Part shown: positions 1,631 to 8,192 of the stretch, one piece after another
Position numbering within the stretch: the stretch's first letter is position 1
Layout of the letters: the number at the start of each line of letters is the position of its first letter
DNA from: a virus
DNA: 28,680 nucleotides
Direction: 5' to 3' (one strand)
IMG/VR virus record: IMGVR_UViG_3300046167_000183
Span: 1 to 28,680 of that record
Notes under the pieces: generated by a model
What the model was told of the DNA's origin: nothing
Seen by the model: the letters and a program-made list of their open reading frames with translations, nothing else
Databases searched by the model: none
Translations under genes and position numbers: made by a program

Positions 1631-2305
1631 TCAAACTTCCTCCCAATTGATCCATTCGCCGACCACTACGCATGGCACATCTCTTCCGCTTCGGCTGTCT
1701 CTTATCTCTGCGACTTTGAGGTTGCCTGTGCTGATCCACTTCTTGACGATTGCCTTTGCCTTTGCTTTGTCCCCTGGCTTTTCTGTGTCGAGGTCGAGCT
1801 GTTCTGCGACTGCATTGCCGATCCAGTTCTTTGCCCTGATGTCTGATCGGTATGCCTTGTCGTTCTCCTCTGCCTTGCCAACTGTTCTCTGGACATCGTA
1901 GAGGTCTTTGGCTGTCACGCCGTCGAACAGGTCAGGCAGTTTGAATTCTGTGGCTACGCCTATGTGCTCTCCGTTTGCTATTTCGACTGAGATCATACGG
2001 CGGTATGTTGCTTTGTCTGATGGCGGTGCGAGGTTTGCTTTGCCATCGTCCTGGCGGAATATGCCGAGTGCTTCTTGTTCGTCCACCCCGAGTGCCATTG
2101 CGTCTTCTGGAGTGATCCTGTTTATCACTCTTGCTGCTCTTGCTGCACCGATCAGGCTGCCTGCACCGCGCACTGAATCCACTGTTGCGTCTTCTCCGTT
2201 GCCTTTGCGGATGTGATGCACAAGCTGGACTGAGCTGTTGGTATCTCTTGCCAGCTTCCTGAGCATTGATACGACTGCCTGGATGCTGCCATTATTGTTT
2301 CTCAT
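1631..2305 (-). CDS. Primase-helicase, C-terminal part of RepA-like ATPase (fragment)
   Basis: This ORF continues the RecA/AAA_25-type ATPase begun in the 2392-3822 ORF. It opens with NNNGSIQAVVSMLRKLARDT and the sensor-like strand VQLVHHIRKG, then GAGSLIGAARAARVINRI, typical of RepA-like hexameric helicases. The C-terminal ~100 residues look like a winged-helix or linker segment (KAKAIVKKWISTGNLKVAEI). The listed ATG is probably not a real start: removing one A from the AAA run at 2298-2300 joins it to the preceding frame as FISAHLVNENNNGSIQ. The real gene would be a single protein of roughly 730 residues spanning 1631-3822. The stop at 1631 lies next to the iteron cluster. Confidence 0.7.
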   Translation of the reverse strand: MRNNNGSIQAVVSMLRKLARDTNSSVQLVHHIRKGNGEDATVDSVRGAGSLIGAARAARVINRITPEDAMALGVDEQEALGIFRQDDGKANLAPPSDKATYRRMISVEIANGEHIGVATEFKLPDLFDGVTAKDLYDVQRTVGKAEENDKAYRSDIRAKNWIGNAVAEQLDLDTEKPGDKAKAKAIVKKWISTGNLKVAEIRDSRSGRDVPCVVVGEWINWEEV

Positions 2306-2501
2306 TGACCAGGTGGGCTGATATGAAAGGATCTAATATTACGACACCTATGTTGTTCTCTTTGATCTTGCGGATCATAAATGCCAGCAGCTCATCGTTC
2401 TGGATCAGGCCGTCCCTGCCTTCTGCCTGCCAGCGTGATCTGCATGGTGTCCTCGCCATCCATGAACAGCTTGCCTTTGATGTCATCTGGCTTGAGGCCA
2501 T
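2292..2501 (-). pseudogene. Primase-helicase, middle segment in a third frame
   Basis: The second half of this ORF reads AEGRDGLIQNDELLAF, then IKENNIGVVILDPFISAHLV. This contains the Walker B strand (VVILDP) expected between the Walker A of the upstream ORF and the sensor strand of the downstream ORF. Its first ~22 codons are a shadow of the upstream frame. It joins upstream near 2426-2431 and downstream at 2298-2300, each by dropping one base. Confidence 0.65.
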
Positions 2502-3822
2502 AGTGCTGCATTGCTGCTATGGTTCTCATTTGAAGTTCTGAGATAGGATCTTCCAAATTTATGACCCAGGTGTTGCACTGCTCCTTGACCCTTACGCCAA
2601 GCAGGTCTTTGCCTGTCGATATTGCCAGTGCTTCCACAATGATTGCGGATGTCTTGCCTATGCCGCCGGCAGATGCTGTTACGCTGATGTACTTCTTGAT
2701 GTAGTCGTATCCATAAACCCACTCTCTGCGGGGCAGTGTGAGCGCATCAAACATTTCGTAGGGCGTGGGCCACTCATTGCCTGTATCGGCCTCTGTGTGG
2801 CTCTGTGTTGGCTCTGTGGCTATTTGCAGTGTCTGGTTCTGCTGCTCCATGCGCTCGGCTGCTGGGTCTGGCGGTGGCGTCCAGCCTTTTGCTCTGGCTC
2901 CGTCGATTGCTTTTTGTACTTCTGCCCTTGTTTCGTCCACTGTGTAGCCGCCCAAGGTGAAGCCATCTGTGATCGCGTGGATCTCTTCGTCGGCTAGGCC
3001 TTTGTTGACGTATGATCCAACCAGGCGCACCATATTGTGATGCCAATCCTCGCCTGCTAGCACGTTCTGGACTGCCAGTTGCCTGTCCATTGCTTGCTGG
3101 CCGAGGTCTATGCTCATTGTGCTAGCAGCCTGTGGCTCTGCCTTTGGGAATGCGCGCATCATGCGTTCAAATTCGACAGGCTCTCTGTCTGTTGAGAACT
3201 CTGTCCGCATTGTGACCAGCTCTGGGACGTATCCTTTGTCTTGTTTCTTTTGGTTGGGCCATGAGACTGTGCCTGCCACGCGCATGATGCGTGATGGGTT
3301 AACGACTGCTGCATCTGTTTGGAGCGAGGCGGCGATTGCTTTTTGTACGTCACGCCATGCTTGCATGTTTTGCACTGGCTCTTCTAGCTGCCAGTATGCG
3401 TGGCCTCTTGCGAATGGCGTTGTGCCTGTCTTGATCGACATGGTGAACTTTGGGCCGGCGAAAGACAGGATGTTTTCCATTGCGCCTGCTGTGTCTGCGT
3501 CCGCAAAGCAATAGAATGCGGCGAGGATGTCTGTGTCTTTGGCGGCTTGGCCTGCCGGTATGTCTATGATTGGGTCAATTGGATTGATGCACATGTATAT
3601 GTTTTGCTTGGCAGCGTTCATTGCCTCGGCATGTTGGGCTGCATCTTCTATGTTTTTTAGTGCAAATCTTGCGGCGTTTGCTGATCCAGATTGCGATATA
3701 GAACGTATCTCTATGAGCGGTTGGCCTACAGTGTTCCAATTTTCTGTGATCTGTGCTATGAACTGCTTAATGATTTCGGTTTTGGGAGCCATTTCCATTT
3801 GTTCTTCCACTTCCATTTTCAT
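2392..3822 (-). CDS. Primase-helicase, N-terminal primase and Walker A part
   Basis: Residues ~20-230 look like a RepB-type (archaeo-eukaryotic) primase: FADADTAGA with acidic residues near 108-110, GHAYWQLEEP (140-149) and PSRIMRVAGTVSWPNQKK (176-193). Residues ~245-320 resemble a primase C-terminal helical domain. After a linker comes the RepA-like ATPase with Walker A GGIGKTS (386-392). The frame is lost after residue ~466 (MQITLAG) and the product ends early at 2392, while Walker B and the rest continue in other frames. ATG 3822 has a strong GGAGG 6 nt upstream. The expected role is opening and priming replication at a nearby origin. The stem-loop at 3841-3864 sits just before its start. 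Confidence 0.75.
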   Translation of the reverse strand: MKMEVEEQMEMAPKTEIIKQFIAQITENWNTVGQPLIEIRSISQSGSANAARFALKNIEDAAQHAEAMNAAKQNIYMCINPIDPIIDIPAGQAAKDTDILAAFYCFADADTAGAMENILSFAGPKFTMSIKTGTTPFARGHAYWQLEEPVQNMQAWRDVQKAIAASLQTDAAVVNPSRIMRVAGTVSWPNQKKQDKGYVPELVTMRTEFSTDREPVEFERMMRAFPKAEPQAASTMSIDLGQQAMDRQLAVQNVLAGEDWHHNMVRLVGSYVNKGLADEEIHAITDGFTLGGYTVDETRAEVQKAIDGARAKGWTPPPDPAAERMEQQNQTLQIATEPTQSHTEADTGNEWPTPYEMFDALTLPRREWVYGYDYIKKYISVTASAGGIGKTSAIIVEALAISTGKDLLGVRVKEQCNTWVINLEDPISELQMRTIAAMQHYGLKPDDIKGKLFMDGEDTMQITLAGRRQGRPDPER

Positions 3823-4507: not shown

Positions 4508-5539
4508 TTACGTTGTTTGATTGTTGGAGTTGTTGTGCGCGTAACCCTGCGCGGGGATGTCATGCACCGCTTTAATCGTCTTGCCTATTTGCATTGCGAT
4601 CTGCGGCACGATAGCATTTCCTAATCCTCTAAGTCTGTCCACCCTTCTGGGTATCCCATTAGCCACTCGACCCACTGCGGGTTCAGGGAGCCAGTTTTGC
4701 CCATCTGGGCGTTCACTGCGTCTGGCAAACTGTTTGTCTTGTTGCGCCCTGCTTTGGCTAGTGTCTCTGGCGTTCTGCCGCCCTTGTAGTCCCGCGCTGT
4801 TGCTGTAGGCCACATTGTCCGAGCTACTACCTCCTCCAGATTTCCGTATTCGTCTGCTCTTTCCGCTAACTTTGGCGTTAGATTTGCTGCCATTGCTGAA
4901 GATGCACGAGGTGTCGGCCACATTGCCACCTGATCTTTCAGCCGCGTCTGCTTCTTCTCGCCCTTGTCGTTGATCCAATACAGCCCTGTCCATGTCCAAC
5001 CCTCTGTCTTCTTCGGTGGCTCGCCGTTGCTGGCTGTTGGTGTTGCCCACATTTCTGGCGACGATCCAAACTCTGTCTCGTCTGTGAGGCGCGTCAGCGG
5101 CACAAGCTGGAACAATGAACGGCCTTGCGGCGTAGCCTTCCCTTTCCAAGTCAGATAACACCTCGTCGAGGCCCATAGAGACATGCCCATAAACATTCTC
5201 GAAAACGCACCAAGAGGGTCGTTTGGCTTTAACAATGGAAAGAATGTACGGCCAGATATGTCTGTCATCTTCTGTGCCTCTGCGCTCCCCGGCAAGTGAA
5301 AAGGGCTGGCAGGGGTATCCGGCTGTGAGGATGTCGCAGTCTGGAACAAGTCCATCTGGGTCATTGGCTAACTCCTTAACGTCTTCTGAAATCGGCACAT
5401 GAGGCCAATGCTTTGCTAATATTTTACGGCTCCACGGCTCAATGTCGCAAAACAATACAGGGATACTTAGCTCTGCCCGCTCAAAGCCAAGGGCAAACCC
5501 ACCAATACCGCTGCAAAGATCAACGTGTCTAAATGCCAT
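4508..5539 (-). CDS. DNA cytosine-C5 methyltransferase
   Basis: 343 aa with the ordered motifs of the C5-MTase family: motif I DLCSGIGGFALGFE (7-20) for SAM binding, DIEPWSRKI (32-40), motif IV AGYPCQPFSLAGERRG with catalytic Cys77, motif VI FENV (113-116), motif VIII HRRDRVWIVA (152-161) and motif X RGLGNAIVPQIA (304-315). The stretch 162-285 between VIII and X is the variable/target-recognition region; it is Ser/Asn/Arg-rich and holds three VGNTNS/VADTS/VAYSNS repeats. It would methylate cytosine in a sequence not predictable here, probably to protect phage DNA from restriction. No cognate endonuclease is seen. Its start overlaps the nuclease stop by 11 nt. Another long ORF lies inside it in a different frame (4621-5364). 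Confidence 0.9.
   Translation of the reverse strand: MAFRHVDLCSGIGGFALGFERAELSIPVLFCDIEPWSRKILAKHWPHVPISEDVKELANDPDGLVPDCDILTAGYPCQPFSLAGERRGTEDDRHIWPYILSIVKAKRPSWCVFENVYGHVSMGLDEVLSDLEREGYAARPFIVPACAADAPHRRDRVWIVARNVGNTNSQQRRATEEDRGLDMDRAVLDQRQGREEADAAERSGGNVADTSCIFSNGSKSNAKVSGKSRRIRKSGGGSSSDNVAYSNSAGLQGRQNARDTSQSRAQQDKQFARRSERPDGQNWLPEPAVGRVANGIPRRVDRLRGLGNAIVPQIAMQIGKTIKAVHDIPAQGYAHNNSNNQTT
4621..5364 (-). CDS. Overprinted ORF nested inside the methyltransferase gene
   Basis: A 247-aa ORF lies entirely within the C5-methyltransferase gene, shifted by one base. Its ATG (5362-5364) is preceded by AAGGAG at 7 nt. It carries DTPASPFHLPGSAEAQKM (16-33), SLWASTRCYLTWKGKATPQG (62-81), three repeats MWATPTAS (105-112), MWPTPRAS (148-155) and MWPTATAR (184-191), and the C-terminal motif WVEWLMGYPEGWTD (231-244). 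From memory, proteins with these PTPTA and WVEWLMGFP-type motifs are common in phage and bacterial genomes as unnamed proteins near C5 methyltransferases. The three Trp-Pro/Ala-Thr motifs lie opposite the three VADT/N-type motifs of the methyltransferase, and WVEWLMGYP lies opposite GRVANGIP. It may be expressed as a second protein of unknown function. It could also be an open shadow of a constrained gene; the ribosome-binding site argues against that. Confidence 0.6.
   Translation of the reverse strand: MTQMDLFQTATSSQPDTPASPFHLPGSAEAQKMTDISGRTFFPLLKPNDPLGAFSRMFMGMSLWASTRCYLTWKGKATPQGRSLFQLVPLTRLTDETEFGSSPEMWATPTASNGEPPKKTEGWTWTGLYWINDKGEKKQTRLKDQVAMWPTPRASSAMAANLTPKLAERADEYGNLEEVVARTMWPTATARDYKGGRTPETLAKAGRNKTNSLPDAVNAQMGKTGSLNPQWVEWLMGYPEGWTDLED
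5372..5377 (-). promoter_or_regulatory. Ribosome-binding site of the nested ORF
   Basis: AAGGAG stands 7 nt before the ATG at 5364, inside the methyltransferase reading frame (codons for VKELAN). A near-consensus site at ideal spacing within another coding sequence is the main non-protein evidence that the nested ORF is translated. Confidence 0.6.
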
Positions 5540-5873
5540 ACATTTCTTCCCGCAGATCTTCTGCCCCGTTCCAATAGAACGTGTTAGGGTTGACGGGTAT
5601 GACCTCTCTAATATCTTCTGCGCTGCCGGAGCGCAGGAATTTTTCTAGCCGAGCGATCTGCTTCTTGGCCTTGCCAAGGATCTCTGTTGGATCGCCGTCT
5701 TCAAGCATGTTGGTTTTCTTTGATGACACATAAAGAAACTTGACCACTTGGTTGCCTCGGGCCTTCTGGTAGATCGCGCGTTGCAGTTGATGCTCTGGGG
5801 ACATCTTGCTTGGGATGCGTCCCGTTGTTTTTAGATCAATCACTACGCCGTGATCGGGGAAACACAAAGTCAA
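5529..5873 (-). CDS. PD-(D/E)XK nuclease, catalytic C-terminal part (fragment)
   Basis: Reads DHGVVIDLKTTGRIPSKM followed by HQLQRAIYQKA, i.e. the D-x-K active-site strand and the Q-x3-4-Y helix of RecB/Cas4-like exonucleases. The first catalytic Asp (GYLDF) lies in the 5836-6051 ORF. The rest (VVKFLYVSSKKTNML, then a helical tail) fits the family. The listed start lies inside the overlap; joining it upstream needs removal of one base from CCCC or TTT (5856-5862), giving YLDFVFPDHGVVIDLKTT. The intact protein would be about 250 aa, encoded by 5529-6280. It lies between the RuvC-like resolvase and the methyltransferase, suggesting recombination or end-processing during replication. Confidence 0.75.
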   Translation of the reverse strand: MTLCFPDHGVVIDLKTTGRIPSKMSPEHQLQRAIYQKARGNQVVKFLYVSSKKTNMLEDGDPTEILGKAKKQIARLEKFLRSGSAEDIREVIPVNPNTFYWNGAEDLREEMYGI

Positions 5874-6051
5874 GGTAGCCGATCACAGGGATCTCAAAGT
5901 CATCTGTCTTGGCTGTGATGCTGATCTTGATCTGCCCGTCTTCAGGAAACTCAGGCTTGCCGTAATGCTCAAGCTCTTGGAGTGTTAGCTCCATACACGG
6001 CTCAATCATGGCGCGCTCTTTGGTAATCTTTTCGTCAGCCATGAAGAACAT
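5836..6051 (-). CDS. PD-(D/E)XK nuclease, middle part (fragment)
   Basis: Carries MIEPCMELTLQELEHYG and FEIPVIGYLDFVFP, the latter with the first active-site Asp of the fold. The last residues (RSRRSD) are read in the wrong frame after the shift at 5856-5862. The Met at 6051 is internal to the original protein: dropping one base at 6058-6064 joins it to the 6056-6280 ORF as ALEKFDSMFFMADEK. Confidence 0.7.
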   Translation of the reverse strand: MFFMADEKITKERAMIEPCMELTLQELEHYGKPEFPEDGQIKISITAKTDDFEIPVIGYLDFVFPRSRRSD

Positions 6052-6055
6052 GCTG

Positions 6056-6280
6056 TCAAACTTTCTCCAATGCCTGATCCAGCGCGCCGGCTTTGTGCAG
6101 CTTGCCGGTCAGTGTGTTGGCAACAGCATCCTCTGTGCAGATGCCACGCATTGCAGCGGCGCCCATAGGTGTGCGCTTCTTGAATAGATATGAGGCAACC
6201 CAAACGTCTGGCGCGTTAGTCCAGAGGTTGATTGATGATGCTGACAGGTGCTTGATGCCGTGCTTTTCAAAACCGTTCAT
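6056..6280 (-). CDS. PD-(D/E)XK nuclease, N-terminal part (fragment)
   Basis: Starts MNGFEKHGIKHLSASSINLW. The LSASSINLWTNAPDVWVASY segment is the usual N-terminal helix motif of RecB-family nucleases (S-x-S-x3-x-W). It continues AAAMRGICTEDAVANTL, the GxxxH/E-like helix, and stops at GAG AAA GTT TGA (6056). The start overlaps the resolvase stop by 4 nt (ATGA), so it was the third gene of the leftward operon. Confidence 0.7.
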   Translation of the reverse strand: MNGFEKHGIKHLSASSINLWTNAPDVWVASYLFKKRTPMGAAAMRGICTEDAVANTLTGKLHKAGALDQALEKV

Positions 6281-6747
6281 GCTGTTAGCTTTCCGTATAG
6301 GGCCAAAAGACAGGCCTCACTTCTGCCATCGTCCTTGACACGTTTAAACAGGTCAGCCTGTGCAGGCCATCTCTGGCTTGCGAGTGATCGGCTGAGTCCT
6401 TTGTCTTTGTTCAGTCCAAGGTGCGACTTCCACTTAGCCGGCGTGACCATTGTCATGGGCAGCTTGTGCGCTGCGATAGCCATCTGCGTGGCGCCGTAGG
6501 CTTGGCCGAAACGGAACATGCTGCTGACACCGTTGCCTCTGACGGCACTGACCTGCTCCAAGATAACATGGTGCGGCTCATCACCTTCTGGCTTTAAGAT
6601 TTCGTGCAGCTCATACAGGTTCAGCTCTGTCTTTCCTTTGATGTTTTTGTAAACCGGCATGTCATGCACCTCGACGCTGTTTCTGTCGGGCCAGTAGAAT
6701 GCAATCGCACCAGTGAAGCCTGGGTCTATGCCGACAAAGACTGTCAT
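6277..6747 (-). CDS. RuvC-like Holliday junction resolvase
   Basis: 156 aa with an RNase H-fold resolvase pattern: GIDPGFTGAIAF (6-17, first Asp at 8), VILEQVSA (61-68, Glu64), MTMVTPAKWKSHLGL (98-112), and DDGRSEACLLALYG (139-152) with Asp139/140 and Glu144. These acidic residues match the metal-binding set of RuvC and phage relatives. It would cut branched recombination or replication intermediates before packaging. It overlaps both neighbours by 4 nt (6744-6747 upstream, 6277-6280 downstream), so it is translationally coupled. Confidence 0.85.
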   Translation of the reverse strand: MTVFVGIDPGFTGAIAFYWPDRNSVEVHDMPVYKNIKGKTELNLYELHEILKPEGDEPHHVILEQVSAVRGNGVSSMFRFGQAYGATQMAIAAHKLPMTMVTPAKWKSHLGLNKDKGLSRSLASQRWPAQADLFKRVKDDGRSEACLLALYGKLTA

Positions 6748-6926
6748 GCTTGATCTCGGATCTTGATGCCGTTGAAGTTAAGAAAGAAGAAGATTGCTTC
6801 TTCAGTTAGATCGCGCAGGGTTGGGTCTTGCCCATCCATCTTTGCTCGGTTCTCTTGCAGAACGCGCATGCCGTCAGCAAGCTCACACTTGATGCGGTGG
6901 TTCCACTGCTCTTTCTTCTGTTTCAT
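6744..6926 (-). CDS. Small hypothetical protein, first gene of leftward operon
   Basis: A 60-aa charged protein (MKQKKEQWNHRIKCELADGM...), probably helical, of no recognised family. The start follows GGGGGAACT, and the end overlaps the resolvase start (ATGA). It is the first gene after the operator array, so it is probably expressed early. Confidence 0.65.
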   Translation of the reverse strand: MKQKKEQWNHRIKCELADGMRVLQENRAKMDGQDPTLRDLTEEAIFFFLNFNGIKIRDQA

Positions 6927-6939
6927 AGTTCCCCCAGGG

Positions 6940-7028
6940 TTGCTAGTCGTTCACAATACATAGTGCTAGCAATTATTTTTATCAAGTGTAATTTTTTGCT
7001 AGCAAAGGTATTGCAAAGTTGCTAGCAA
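6940..7028. promoter_or_regulatory. Divergent control region with four TTGCTAGCAA-type operators
   Basis: Sites: 6940-6949 (TTGCTAGTCG, half site intact), 6963-6972 (GTGCTAGCAA, one mismatch), 6996-7005 (TTGCTAGCAA, extending to the 12-bp palindrome TTTGCTAGCAAA at 6995-7006) and 7019-7028 (TTGCTAGCAA). The centres are 23, 33 and 23 bp apart, a mirror-symmetric layout between the leftward (6926) and rightward (7065) genes. Weak promoter-like pairs overlap them: leftward TTGATA (6980-6985) - 17 bp - TATGTA (6957-6962), and rightward TTGCAA (7011-7016) - 17 bp - TAATGT. A dimeric repressor or activator binding here would switch both operons. No repressor gene is certain in the window. Confidence 0.7.
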
Positions 7029-7064
7029 GCATTTAATGTAATCTTACAGCAAGAGGAGAGCCAC

Positions 7065-7283
7065 ATGACAATCGACGAAATCAAATCCGCAATTGCCAAA
7101 GAGACCAGTTTCATTGACAATAAATTAAAGGTCATTGACGAACTGAAAAAATACTATGGAGAAGGTGTCCGATCATCATCGGCCAGCGCCGACATAGGAA
7201 TGGAAGCAGCCATGTTGCAAACCGCAATTGCAACTCGCAAAAACTTTGAGCAGTTACTGAAGGAGATGACAGATGAAAGCTGA
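7065..7283 (+). CDS. Small hypothetical protein, first gene of rightward operon
   Basis: 72 aa, helical, beginning MTIDEIKSAIAKETSFIDNK. Charged heptad-like segments (9-30 and 50-68) suggest a small coiled-coil or adaptor. A strong AGAGGAG precedes the ATG. It is the first gene after the operator array and therefore likely early. Function unknown. Confidence 0.75.
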   Translation: MTIDEIKSAIAKETSFIDNKLKVIDELKKYYGEGVRSSSASADIGMEAAMLQTAIATRKNFEQLLKEMTDES

Positions 7284-7365
7284 TTGGGAAGACTATGTAA
7301 TTATCATCAGCGCGTTTGTCGCTGCAAACGCATGGATCGCAGGCATTGTGTGGGGGTGGTGGTGA
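7273..7365 (+). CDS. 30-aa membrane peptide
   Basis: ATG 7273 overlaps the end of the previous gene. The product MKADWEDYVIIISAFVAANA and then WIAGIVWGWW is one hydrophobic helix with a short acidic N-terminus. Its TGA overlaps the GTG start of the next gene (GTGA, 7362-7365), and AGGAGATGAC upstream can serve as a ribosome-binding site. Tight coupling on both sides supports it. Function unknown; it may sit in the inner membrane. Confidence 0.6.
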   Translation: MKADWEDYVIIISAFVAANAWIAGIVWGWW

Positions 7366-7544
7366 GCGAACTAACTCCTGCCGATCAGGCCATACTGCGA
7401 TACCTGCGCACTCAAGTGGATCGCCTGCAAGACGAGCGGTATCGTCAGGACGCGAGGCCGAGCATTGTTAATGAACTTCAAATTGCCCAGCGTGATCTGA
7501 AGAAATACACATCTGACCTCAGAAAAAAAGGATACAATATATAA
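7362..7544 (+). CDS. Small charged helical protein
   Basis: 60 aa from GTG 7362: VSELTPADQAILRYLRTQVD, then a charged helical tail (QIAQRDLKKYTSDLRKKGYN). The frame is open to 7284, but the extra N-terminus would be Cys/Arg-rich nonsense overlapping the membrane peptide. The GTGA overlap and the G-rich upstream sequence favour 7362. The stop TAA shares one base with the next ATG (TAATG). No family recognised. Confidence 0.65.
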   Translation: MSELTPADQAILRYLRTQVDRLQDERYRQDARPSIVNELQIAQRDLKKYTSDLRKKGYNI

Positions 7545-7936
7545 TGGTCAAAGTAGTAGACGTTGAAATAAACGTCATGTCATTTAAACGCGCATTTAAT
7601 CGGGAACCCACTGAGGCAGAGATGGGCGCCTTGATGAGGCTGAACGCCAAAAGAAACGAAAAGCAATGCGGCGGCAAGAATACAATCAAAAAGATTGACA
7701 GGCGCCTTGCGTCTGCATCCAAGGCTCGGGATTACATTAAGAGCCAGCCGCTCAAGCGCAACATTGTAGTTACCCGCACCGCGTGGTCTGTTAATTACCT
7801 ACTCAAGTTAGACTTGAACAAATCACAAATCATGGACGTTCTGCACATAAGTGAGATCGCTTATGATCGGGCCGTCAAGCAATACAATCTGCCGCGTGAC
7901 GGGATTGAAAGAAGGTTTAAAAATGACAAGAAATGA
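7544..7936 (+). CDS. Possible helix-turn-helix DNA-binding protein
   Basis: 130 aa, basic. Residues ~80-118 (WSVNYLLKLDLNKSQIMDVL, then HISEIAYDRAVKQYNLP) look like two helices around a turn, as in HTH regulators (K-S-Q-I-M-D-V-L ... I-A-Y-D-R-A-V). The N-terminal part has SFKRAFNREPTEAEMGAL. It is the best candidate in the window to act on the TTGCTAGCAA operators, but that is inference. TAATG coupling links it to the gene before, and it overlaps the next start at 7923. Confidence 0.6.
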   Translation: MVKVVDVEINVMSFKRAFNREPTEAEMGALMRLNAKRNEKQCGGKNTIKKIDRRLASASKARDYIKSQPLKRNIVVTRTAWSVNYLLKLDLNKSQIMDVLHISEIAYDRAVKQYNLPRDGIERRFKNDKK

Positions 7937-8192
7937 AATACTGAAAGAAGCCGCGCGCATAATCAGCACCGAAAGAGCGGACGATTATGGGCCGGCAGAT
8001 GAATCGTTCAAGCGCATTGCTCAACTTTGGACATCTTATCTTGATGTGGCTGTCAGCCCTATGGACGTTGCCAATATGTATATACTGAGCAAGGTGCAGC
8101 GTACATTAACGTCACCAAGCAAAGATGATACATGGACAGATATTTGCGGTTATGCTGCATTGGCAGGGGAGATGATGACAAATGAAAAGTAA
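7923..8192 (+). CDS. DUF6378-like protein
   Basis: 89 aa from ATG 7923; the frame is open to 7851, but the upstream part is a shadow of the previous gene. ARIISTERADDYGPADESFK, RIAQLWTSYL, VSPMDVANMYILSKVQRTL and DTWTDICGYAALAGE follow the pattern of a common small phage protein (DUF6378). I recall these as having a MazG-like helical fold, so a nucleotide-pyrophosphatase role is possible but unproven. The end overlaps the start of the next short gene. Confidence 0.8.
   Translation: MTRNEILKEAARIISTERADDYGPADESFKRIAQLWTSYLDVAVSPMDVANMYILSKVQRTLTSPSKDDTWTDICGYAALAGEMMTNEK

Follow-up and report, generated by a model that had tools for sequence, protein, structure and literature searches.

A conserved array of CTAG-centred sites between divergent operons of an uncultured marine virus, and a candidate 60-residue autorepressor

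Which protein acts at the short gap where two divergent operons of an uncultured marine virus meet, and what would it control there? The stretch of DNA analysed here, which we call the window, is an IMG/VR virus record of 28,680 bases. Nearly all of its genes are oriented leftward, and a scan of the window for non-coding RNAs and tRNAs found none. Its main gene blocks are the following.

About 28 kb down to 8.5 kb, minus strand: structural genes.
7,065-8,192, plus strand: short rightward operon.
From 6,926 downward, minus strand: DNA-metabolism genes.

A gap of 138 bp separates the rightward operon from the leftward DNA-metabolism operon, and contains all four CTAG-centred sites.

6940-6949, no strand assigned: O1, TTGCTAGTCG, a half-palindrome at about +1 to +10 of the predicted leftward promoter, P-left.
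6963-6972, no strand assigned: O2, GTGCTAGCAA, a 9/10 match, in the 17-bp spacer of P-left and abutting its -10 hexamer.
6996-7005, no strand assigned: O3, TTGCTAGCAA, a perfect site immediately upstream of the -35 hexamer of the predicted rightward promoter, P-right, with its centre near -45.
7019-7028, no strand assigned: O4, TTGCTAGCAA, a perfect site within the 17-bp spacer of P-right.

Direct reading confirmed the positions of the four palindromes listed in a preliminary description, with centres at 6944/45, 6967/68, 7000/01 and 7023/24 and spacings of 23, 33 and 23 bp, as well as the perfection of the two right-hand copies, which begin at 6996 and 7019. The leftmost site is a half-palindrome only. 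The mirror symmetry claimed for the locus belongs to the spacings alone, since each site is itself palindromic, and the predicted promoters are not mirror images of each other.

Counting loose matches does not separate this array from chance. Allowing up to two mismatches, the window holds 27 motif matches against 22.4 expected, which is no enrichment, and this test over the window is uninformative. The window's only two perfect copies and one of its two one-mismatch copies fall inside 66 bp, and CTAG is depleted in the window, with 66 occurrences against 111 expected from base composition. The preliminary description had also proposed a scan for further sites; in 13 related contigs of near-genome length (31-35 kb), perfect copies were found nowhere but in the array, with one-mismatch matches scattered elsewhere. 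No phage paper was found in the literature on this motif.

The comparison of relatives was more informative. With RuvC as the query, 80 relatives were retrieved from viral contigs, and every close RuvC relative has the four-site array in the same place. To the right of O4 the sequence is entirely different from one to another, while the sites stay. A second search, with the 60-aa protein described below as the query, extended the set to 40 distinct array sequences. The 23-33-23 layout characterizes the window's own clade, the other relatives having mostly 23-34-23, and one or other of these layouts is kept in about 40 distinct relatives. Across the distinct arrays, little or no variation is seen in O1 TTGCTAG, O2 GCTAGCA, O3 and O4; for O1 this concerns the left half (7 of 10 positions), kept in 40 of 40 arrays, the right half being degenerate. 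Four loci (L032, L033, L041 and L042) have an alternative layout, 12-44/46-12, and two groups with the 23-bp layout (the L040/L149 type and L140) have an extra CTAG midway between neighbouring sites, so that the sites appear, in these few cases, to sit on a lattice of about 11.5 bp. Judged from these alignments, it is conservation, rather than the loose motif count, that marks the array as more than a chance arrangement.

Sigma-70 hexamers with a 17-bp spacer were scanned at each of 61 offsets in 41 distinct arrays, and two promoters are predicted.

6957-6985, minus strand: predicted P-left, with -35 TTGATA (6985-6980), a 17-bp spacer and -10 TATGTA (6962-6957).
7011-7039, plus strand: predicted P-right, with -35 TTGCAA, a 17-bp spacer and -10 TAATGT.

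Both offsets are the best of the 61, with means of 7.63 of 12 consensus matches for P-left, against 3.57 elsewhere, and 7.90 of 12 for P-right, against 3.55. The -35 of P-right is TTGACA in several relatives; its consensus is degenerate in L034, L040 and L137, though O4 stays conserved there. Transcription is expected to start near 6950 from P-left and near 7046 from P-right, and leaders of about 20 nt with Shine-Dalgarno-like sequences would follow from these predicted promoters. O2 and O4 lie within the spacers of P-left and P-right, at positions fixed in the 41 distinct arrays, the promoters being consensus predictions. The idea of an operator array between divergent operons is thereby strengthened, in that the sites overlap both predicted promoters.

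The start of the leftward operon supplies a candidate for the protein that would bind these sites.

6744-6926, minus strand: 60-aa candidate repressor, first gene of the leftward operon, unannotated and always beside the array.
6277-6747, minus strand: RuvC-like Holliday junction resolvase, second gene of the leftward operon and the basis of our reference tree.

With the 60-aa gene as the regulator, the palindromic sites lie inside the predicted core promoter of the regulator's own operon, as is characteristic of autorepressors. The gene is present in 13 of the 13 genomes examined whole and at all array loci, and where a RuvC relative has no such gene the array is missing too. Among 59 loci found by the 60-aa protein itself, the exceptions to the array are three, L143, L145 and L157, to which we return below. 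Residues K5, QWNHRI (7-12), E15, A17, M20, Q24, R38, TEE (41-43) and G53, in window numbering, are invariant.

The layout of the operators also varies with this gene. L032 and L041 have the 12-44/46-12 layout in common, with regulators 87% and RuvC proteins 75% identical, whereas the layouts of L041 and L038 are different even though their RuvC proteins are 97% identical, their regulators being only 54% identical. On the RuvC tree, the 12-bp layout occurs twice, in separate parts of the array-bearing group. The layout thus follows the 60-aa regulator and not the adjacent RuvC, suggesting that regulator and operators are exchanged as one module and vary jointly; this co-variation is confounded by adjacency, as linkage of neighbouring genes and sites could by itself yield part of the co-inheritance.

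The three exceptions show a further kind of change. In them the regulator domain forms the C-terminus of a larger protein, of 196-197 aa in L143 and L157, which has gained an N-terminal segment, weakly matching a PHROG 'transcriptional repressor' family (E 0.02-0.04), and a T5orf172 domain.

L143, 2578-3171, and L157, 2581-3171: fusion genes, with an apparent DNA-binding N-terminus, T5orf172 and the 60-aa regulator.

In the control region of L143, L145 and L157, a single GCTAGC in the P-right spacer is all that survives of the array, and two blocks of TTGCACAT[CT]TTGCACA have appeared. On the RuvC tree, the fusions arise in two distinct positions within the array-bearing relatives.

Relatives outside the array-bearing group offer a separate observation. 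Upstream of RuvC in L043, L046, L047, L049 and L052, a different protein of about 52 aa stands in the regulator's position and there is no array; one such protein, when tested, gave a NikA-like match just below the Pfam cut-off. NikA has a ribbon-helix-helix fold. No clear alternative repeats or palindromes were seen in the non-array relatives L043-L053.

The 60-aa protein itself gave no usable match in Pfam, PHROG, PDB-sequence or PDB-fold searches: Foldseek returned nothing, no helix-turn-helix (HTH) family matched, and neither a ribbon-helix-helix profile of Pfam or PHROG nor a PDB sequence or fold matched significantly. It also has no relative in the phage and bacterial genome collections searched. 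AlphaFold2 models of the monomer without a partner, from 12- and 20-sequence alignments, have helices at 2-29 and 33-47 and no strand, at moderate confidence (pLDDT 77-80, pTM about 0.4). The order of the invariant QWNHRI and then two helices is reminiscent of P22 Arc; QWNHRI aligns with QFNLRW of Arc, weakly (single-pair hhalign, E 0.02, probability 2%), and no in-register alignment with Mnt was obtained. Arc reads its DNA through Gln9, Asn11 and Arg13. The protein is probably of the Arc-like ribbon-helix-helix type; given the strandless models and the lack of a family profile match, we compare its proposed action with that of an Arc-type repressor, without assigning it to the ribbon-helix-helix proteins.

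Arc and Mnt of P22 immI offer a close parallel in organization. There a small phage repressor of its own operon (53 aa for Arc) is encoded at a divergent promoter pair (arc-ant and mnt), as the candidate repressor is here, and the annotated Arc operator lies within the arc/ant promoter, like the placement of O2 and O4. The strand QFNLRW of Arc is the segment that aligns, weakly, with the invariant QWNHRI. Unlike in P22, four near-identical CTAG palindromes would serve both promoters here, no second repressor or antirepressor was identified, there is no homology by family profiles, and the phage is non-temperate as far as tested.

Two other small-regulator systems bear comparison. Aca autorepressors are small phage regulators that limit early accessory gene expression through inverted repeats in the core promoter, and the known families are described as HTH proteins encoded after an anti-CRISPR gene in one operon (PMC9410906). 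The present locus resembles them in its small phage-encoded candidate regulator, in repeats in a predicted core promoter and in its proposed logic; it differs in that the regulator gene points away from the accessory gene and its product has no HTH match, and in that the accessory genes are not known anti-CRISPRs, so that the 60-aa gene is not an Aca gene in the sense of an HTH protein co-operonic with an anti-CRISPR gene. RelB is a ribbon-helix-helix repressor that binds abutting 12-bp palindromic half-sites as cooperative dimers (PMC2812701). The relO half-sites match the 12-bp layout of L032, L033, L041 and L042. Unlike in RelB/relO, no toxin partner is seen here, and the commoner layout, 23 bp, amounts to two lattice steps whose middle position is usually degenerate.

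Taken together, these features make it likely, in our judgement, that the array serves two divergent early promoters as a common operator, to which the 6744-6926 product, a probable Arc-like autorepressor, would bind. The array, its conservation, its overlap with consensus promoters, the gene linkage and the hypervariable slot described below were computed here, and from them we infer binding, fold, stoichiometry and repression.

The main competing explanation is that the array is the operator of some other protein, either a host regulator or the phage's own 7544-7936 product, the 60-aa gene being merely adjacent. The preliminary description had named this product as the candidate regulator, overlooking the adjacent 60-aa gene, which is the better candidate.

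7544-7936, plus strand: 130-aa protein with a weak HTH_23 match, inconsistently present with the array.

The HTH_23 match speaks for the 130-aa product, just as the lack of a recognised DNA-binding family in the 60-aa protein speaks for another binder in general, and adjacency alone would explain the co-inheritance of the 60-aa gene with the array. However, a relative of the 130-aa protein exists in only 7 of the 13 near-complete genomes, a distant one (30-50% identity) in three of these seven, and it is missing from array-bearing genomes, G005, G009, G011 and G012 among others; on this distribution the candidate was rejected. Nor would a host regulator predict that the layout follows the 60-aa gene with RuvC uncoupled, or that the operators change exactly in the lineages where that gene acquires an N-terminal domain. 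We give binding by another protein a small but appreciable probability, and regard the 60-aa gene as the best regulator candidate for the array.

Distinctly less probable still is a bistable switch between lysis and lysogeny as in lambda or P22, in which repressors would compete for the array; we consider it unlikely. Lambdoid operators do resemble the array in their 23-bp centre spacing and divergent promoters, which counts for such a switch, as does the presence of both Arc and Mnt at the divergent promoters of P22 immI. Yet the 13 near-complete genomes, near-complete by length only, contain no serine recombinase, no tyrosine integrase above the cut-off or other maintenance function identified by these searches, and no CI/Cro-type protein of the HTH_3 family, the sole HTH family tested. 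The sole integrase trace is sub-threshold with an internal stop and lies in G010, the contig of L157, at 2458-2724; G010 has no array, and the trace may be left over from a temperate past. The scanned bacterial and archaeal genome contigs contain no relative of the regulator, and the first rightward gene belongs to one of about 20 families rather than being a conserved Cro- or CI-like gene. With no integrase or CI-like gene found, feedback on early genes is likelier than a lysogeny switch. Of the cooperative dimers forming a genetic switch in the preliminary description, the first half is retained, since the spacing suggests cooperative neighbours and the factor bound to the array is probably dimeric; the lysogeny-type switch is not.

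Least probable of all is a replication origin or a partition or recombination site, with iterons and an initiator, as the repeats do flank an A+T-rich centre beside the replication operon but interleave on both sides with promoter hexamers at a fixed 17-bp spacing, switch layout between 23-33-23 and 12-45-12, and are replaced along with a change in the small regulator and not in a replication gene.

Under the autorepressor reading, one dimer would bind each CTAG-centred palindrome, and neighbouring dimers within each half would cooperate on the lattice of about 11.5 bp (positions 0, 11-12 and 23). Filling O2 and O4 would occupy the spacers of P-left and P-right, with O1 covering the P-left start and O3 abutting the P-right -35. 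As the sites lie on both promoters, a filled array would exclude RNA polymerase from both sides. Right after infection, with no repressor present, both operons would fire, the leftward one producing replication and recombination genes and the rightward one a strain-specific small accessory gene. The 60-aa product would build up from P-left, fill the lattice in cooperative pairs and shut both promoters, so that the outcome would be a pulse of early expression.

Some genes of the leftward operon deserve mention in their own right. A gene that by eye resembles a PD-(D/E)XK-type nuclease gene follows RuvC (5529-6280, minus strand) and is broken over several frames in the window; in L006, L008, L019 and L029 the same gene is a single open frame of about 249-260 aa, and sequencing or assembly frameshifts are the likely cause of the split. 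The primase/helicase-like AAA gene (1631-3822, minus strand) is likewise in two pieces, of 476 and 224 aa, whereas most relatives checked have it as a single frame of 729-730 aa, pointing to a frameshift within this contig. Between the PD-(D/E)XK-like nuclease and the next gene lies a DNA cytosine methyltransferase gene (4508-5539, minus strand); the matching interval is about 1 kb shorter in seven relatives checked, so that this gene looks like an insertion in this virus.

On the other side of the array, the gene that P-right would express changes from virus to virus.

7065-7283, plus strand: first rightward gene, 72 aa, the hypervariable accessory slot.

The first rightward gene belongs to 23 sequence families, a few of them possibly mis-called, across 67 array records that include some contigs twice. 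Ten of these first rightward proteins, compared with Pfam, gave no confident match. The regulator and the array are thus the constant part and the cargo of P-right the variable one; a role for this cargo in host takeover or anti-defence is a guess.

The HTVC010P-type pelagiphages are similar in genome size (34-36 kb) and have a tail tubular protein B of about 45-57% identity; the 60-aa gene is absent from HTVC010P and HTVC203P, so that the control module here differs from theirs. Tentatively, an undescribed family of phage repressors of about 60 aa may run a swappable cassette of regulator, operator lattice and one-gene slot in a widespread group of marine podoviruses. Such a cassette would recombine as a unit, its operator code could be changed by gaining a DNA-binding domain, and its slot would act as a trap for fast-evolving host-takeover or anti-defence genes. 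The natural swaps of layouts and regulators offer material for asking how the sites and a small DNA-binding protein evolve jointly. Pairs of TTGCTAGCAA 23 or 12 bp apart provide a signature by which the early promoters, the accessory slot and the control protein would be recognisable across many metagenomic genomes together. Should the repressor be confirmed, the genes behind P-right would become a list of candidate host-takeover and anti-defence genes, found by their regulation rather than by homology.
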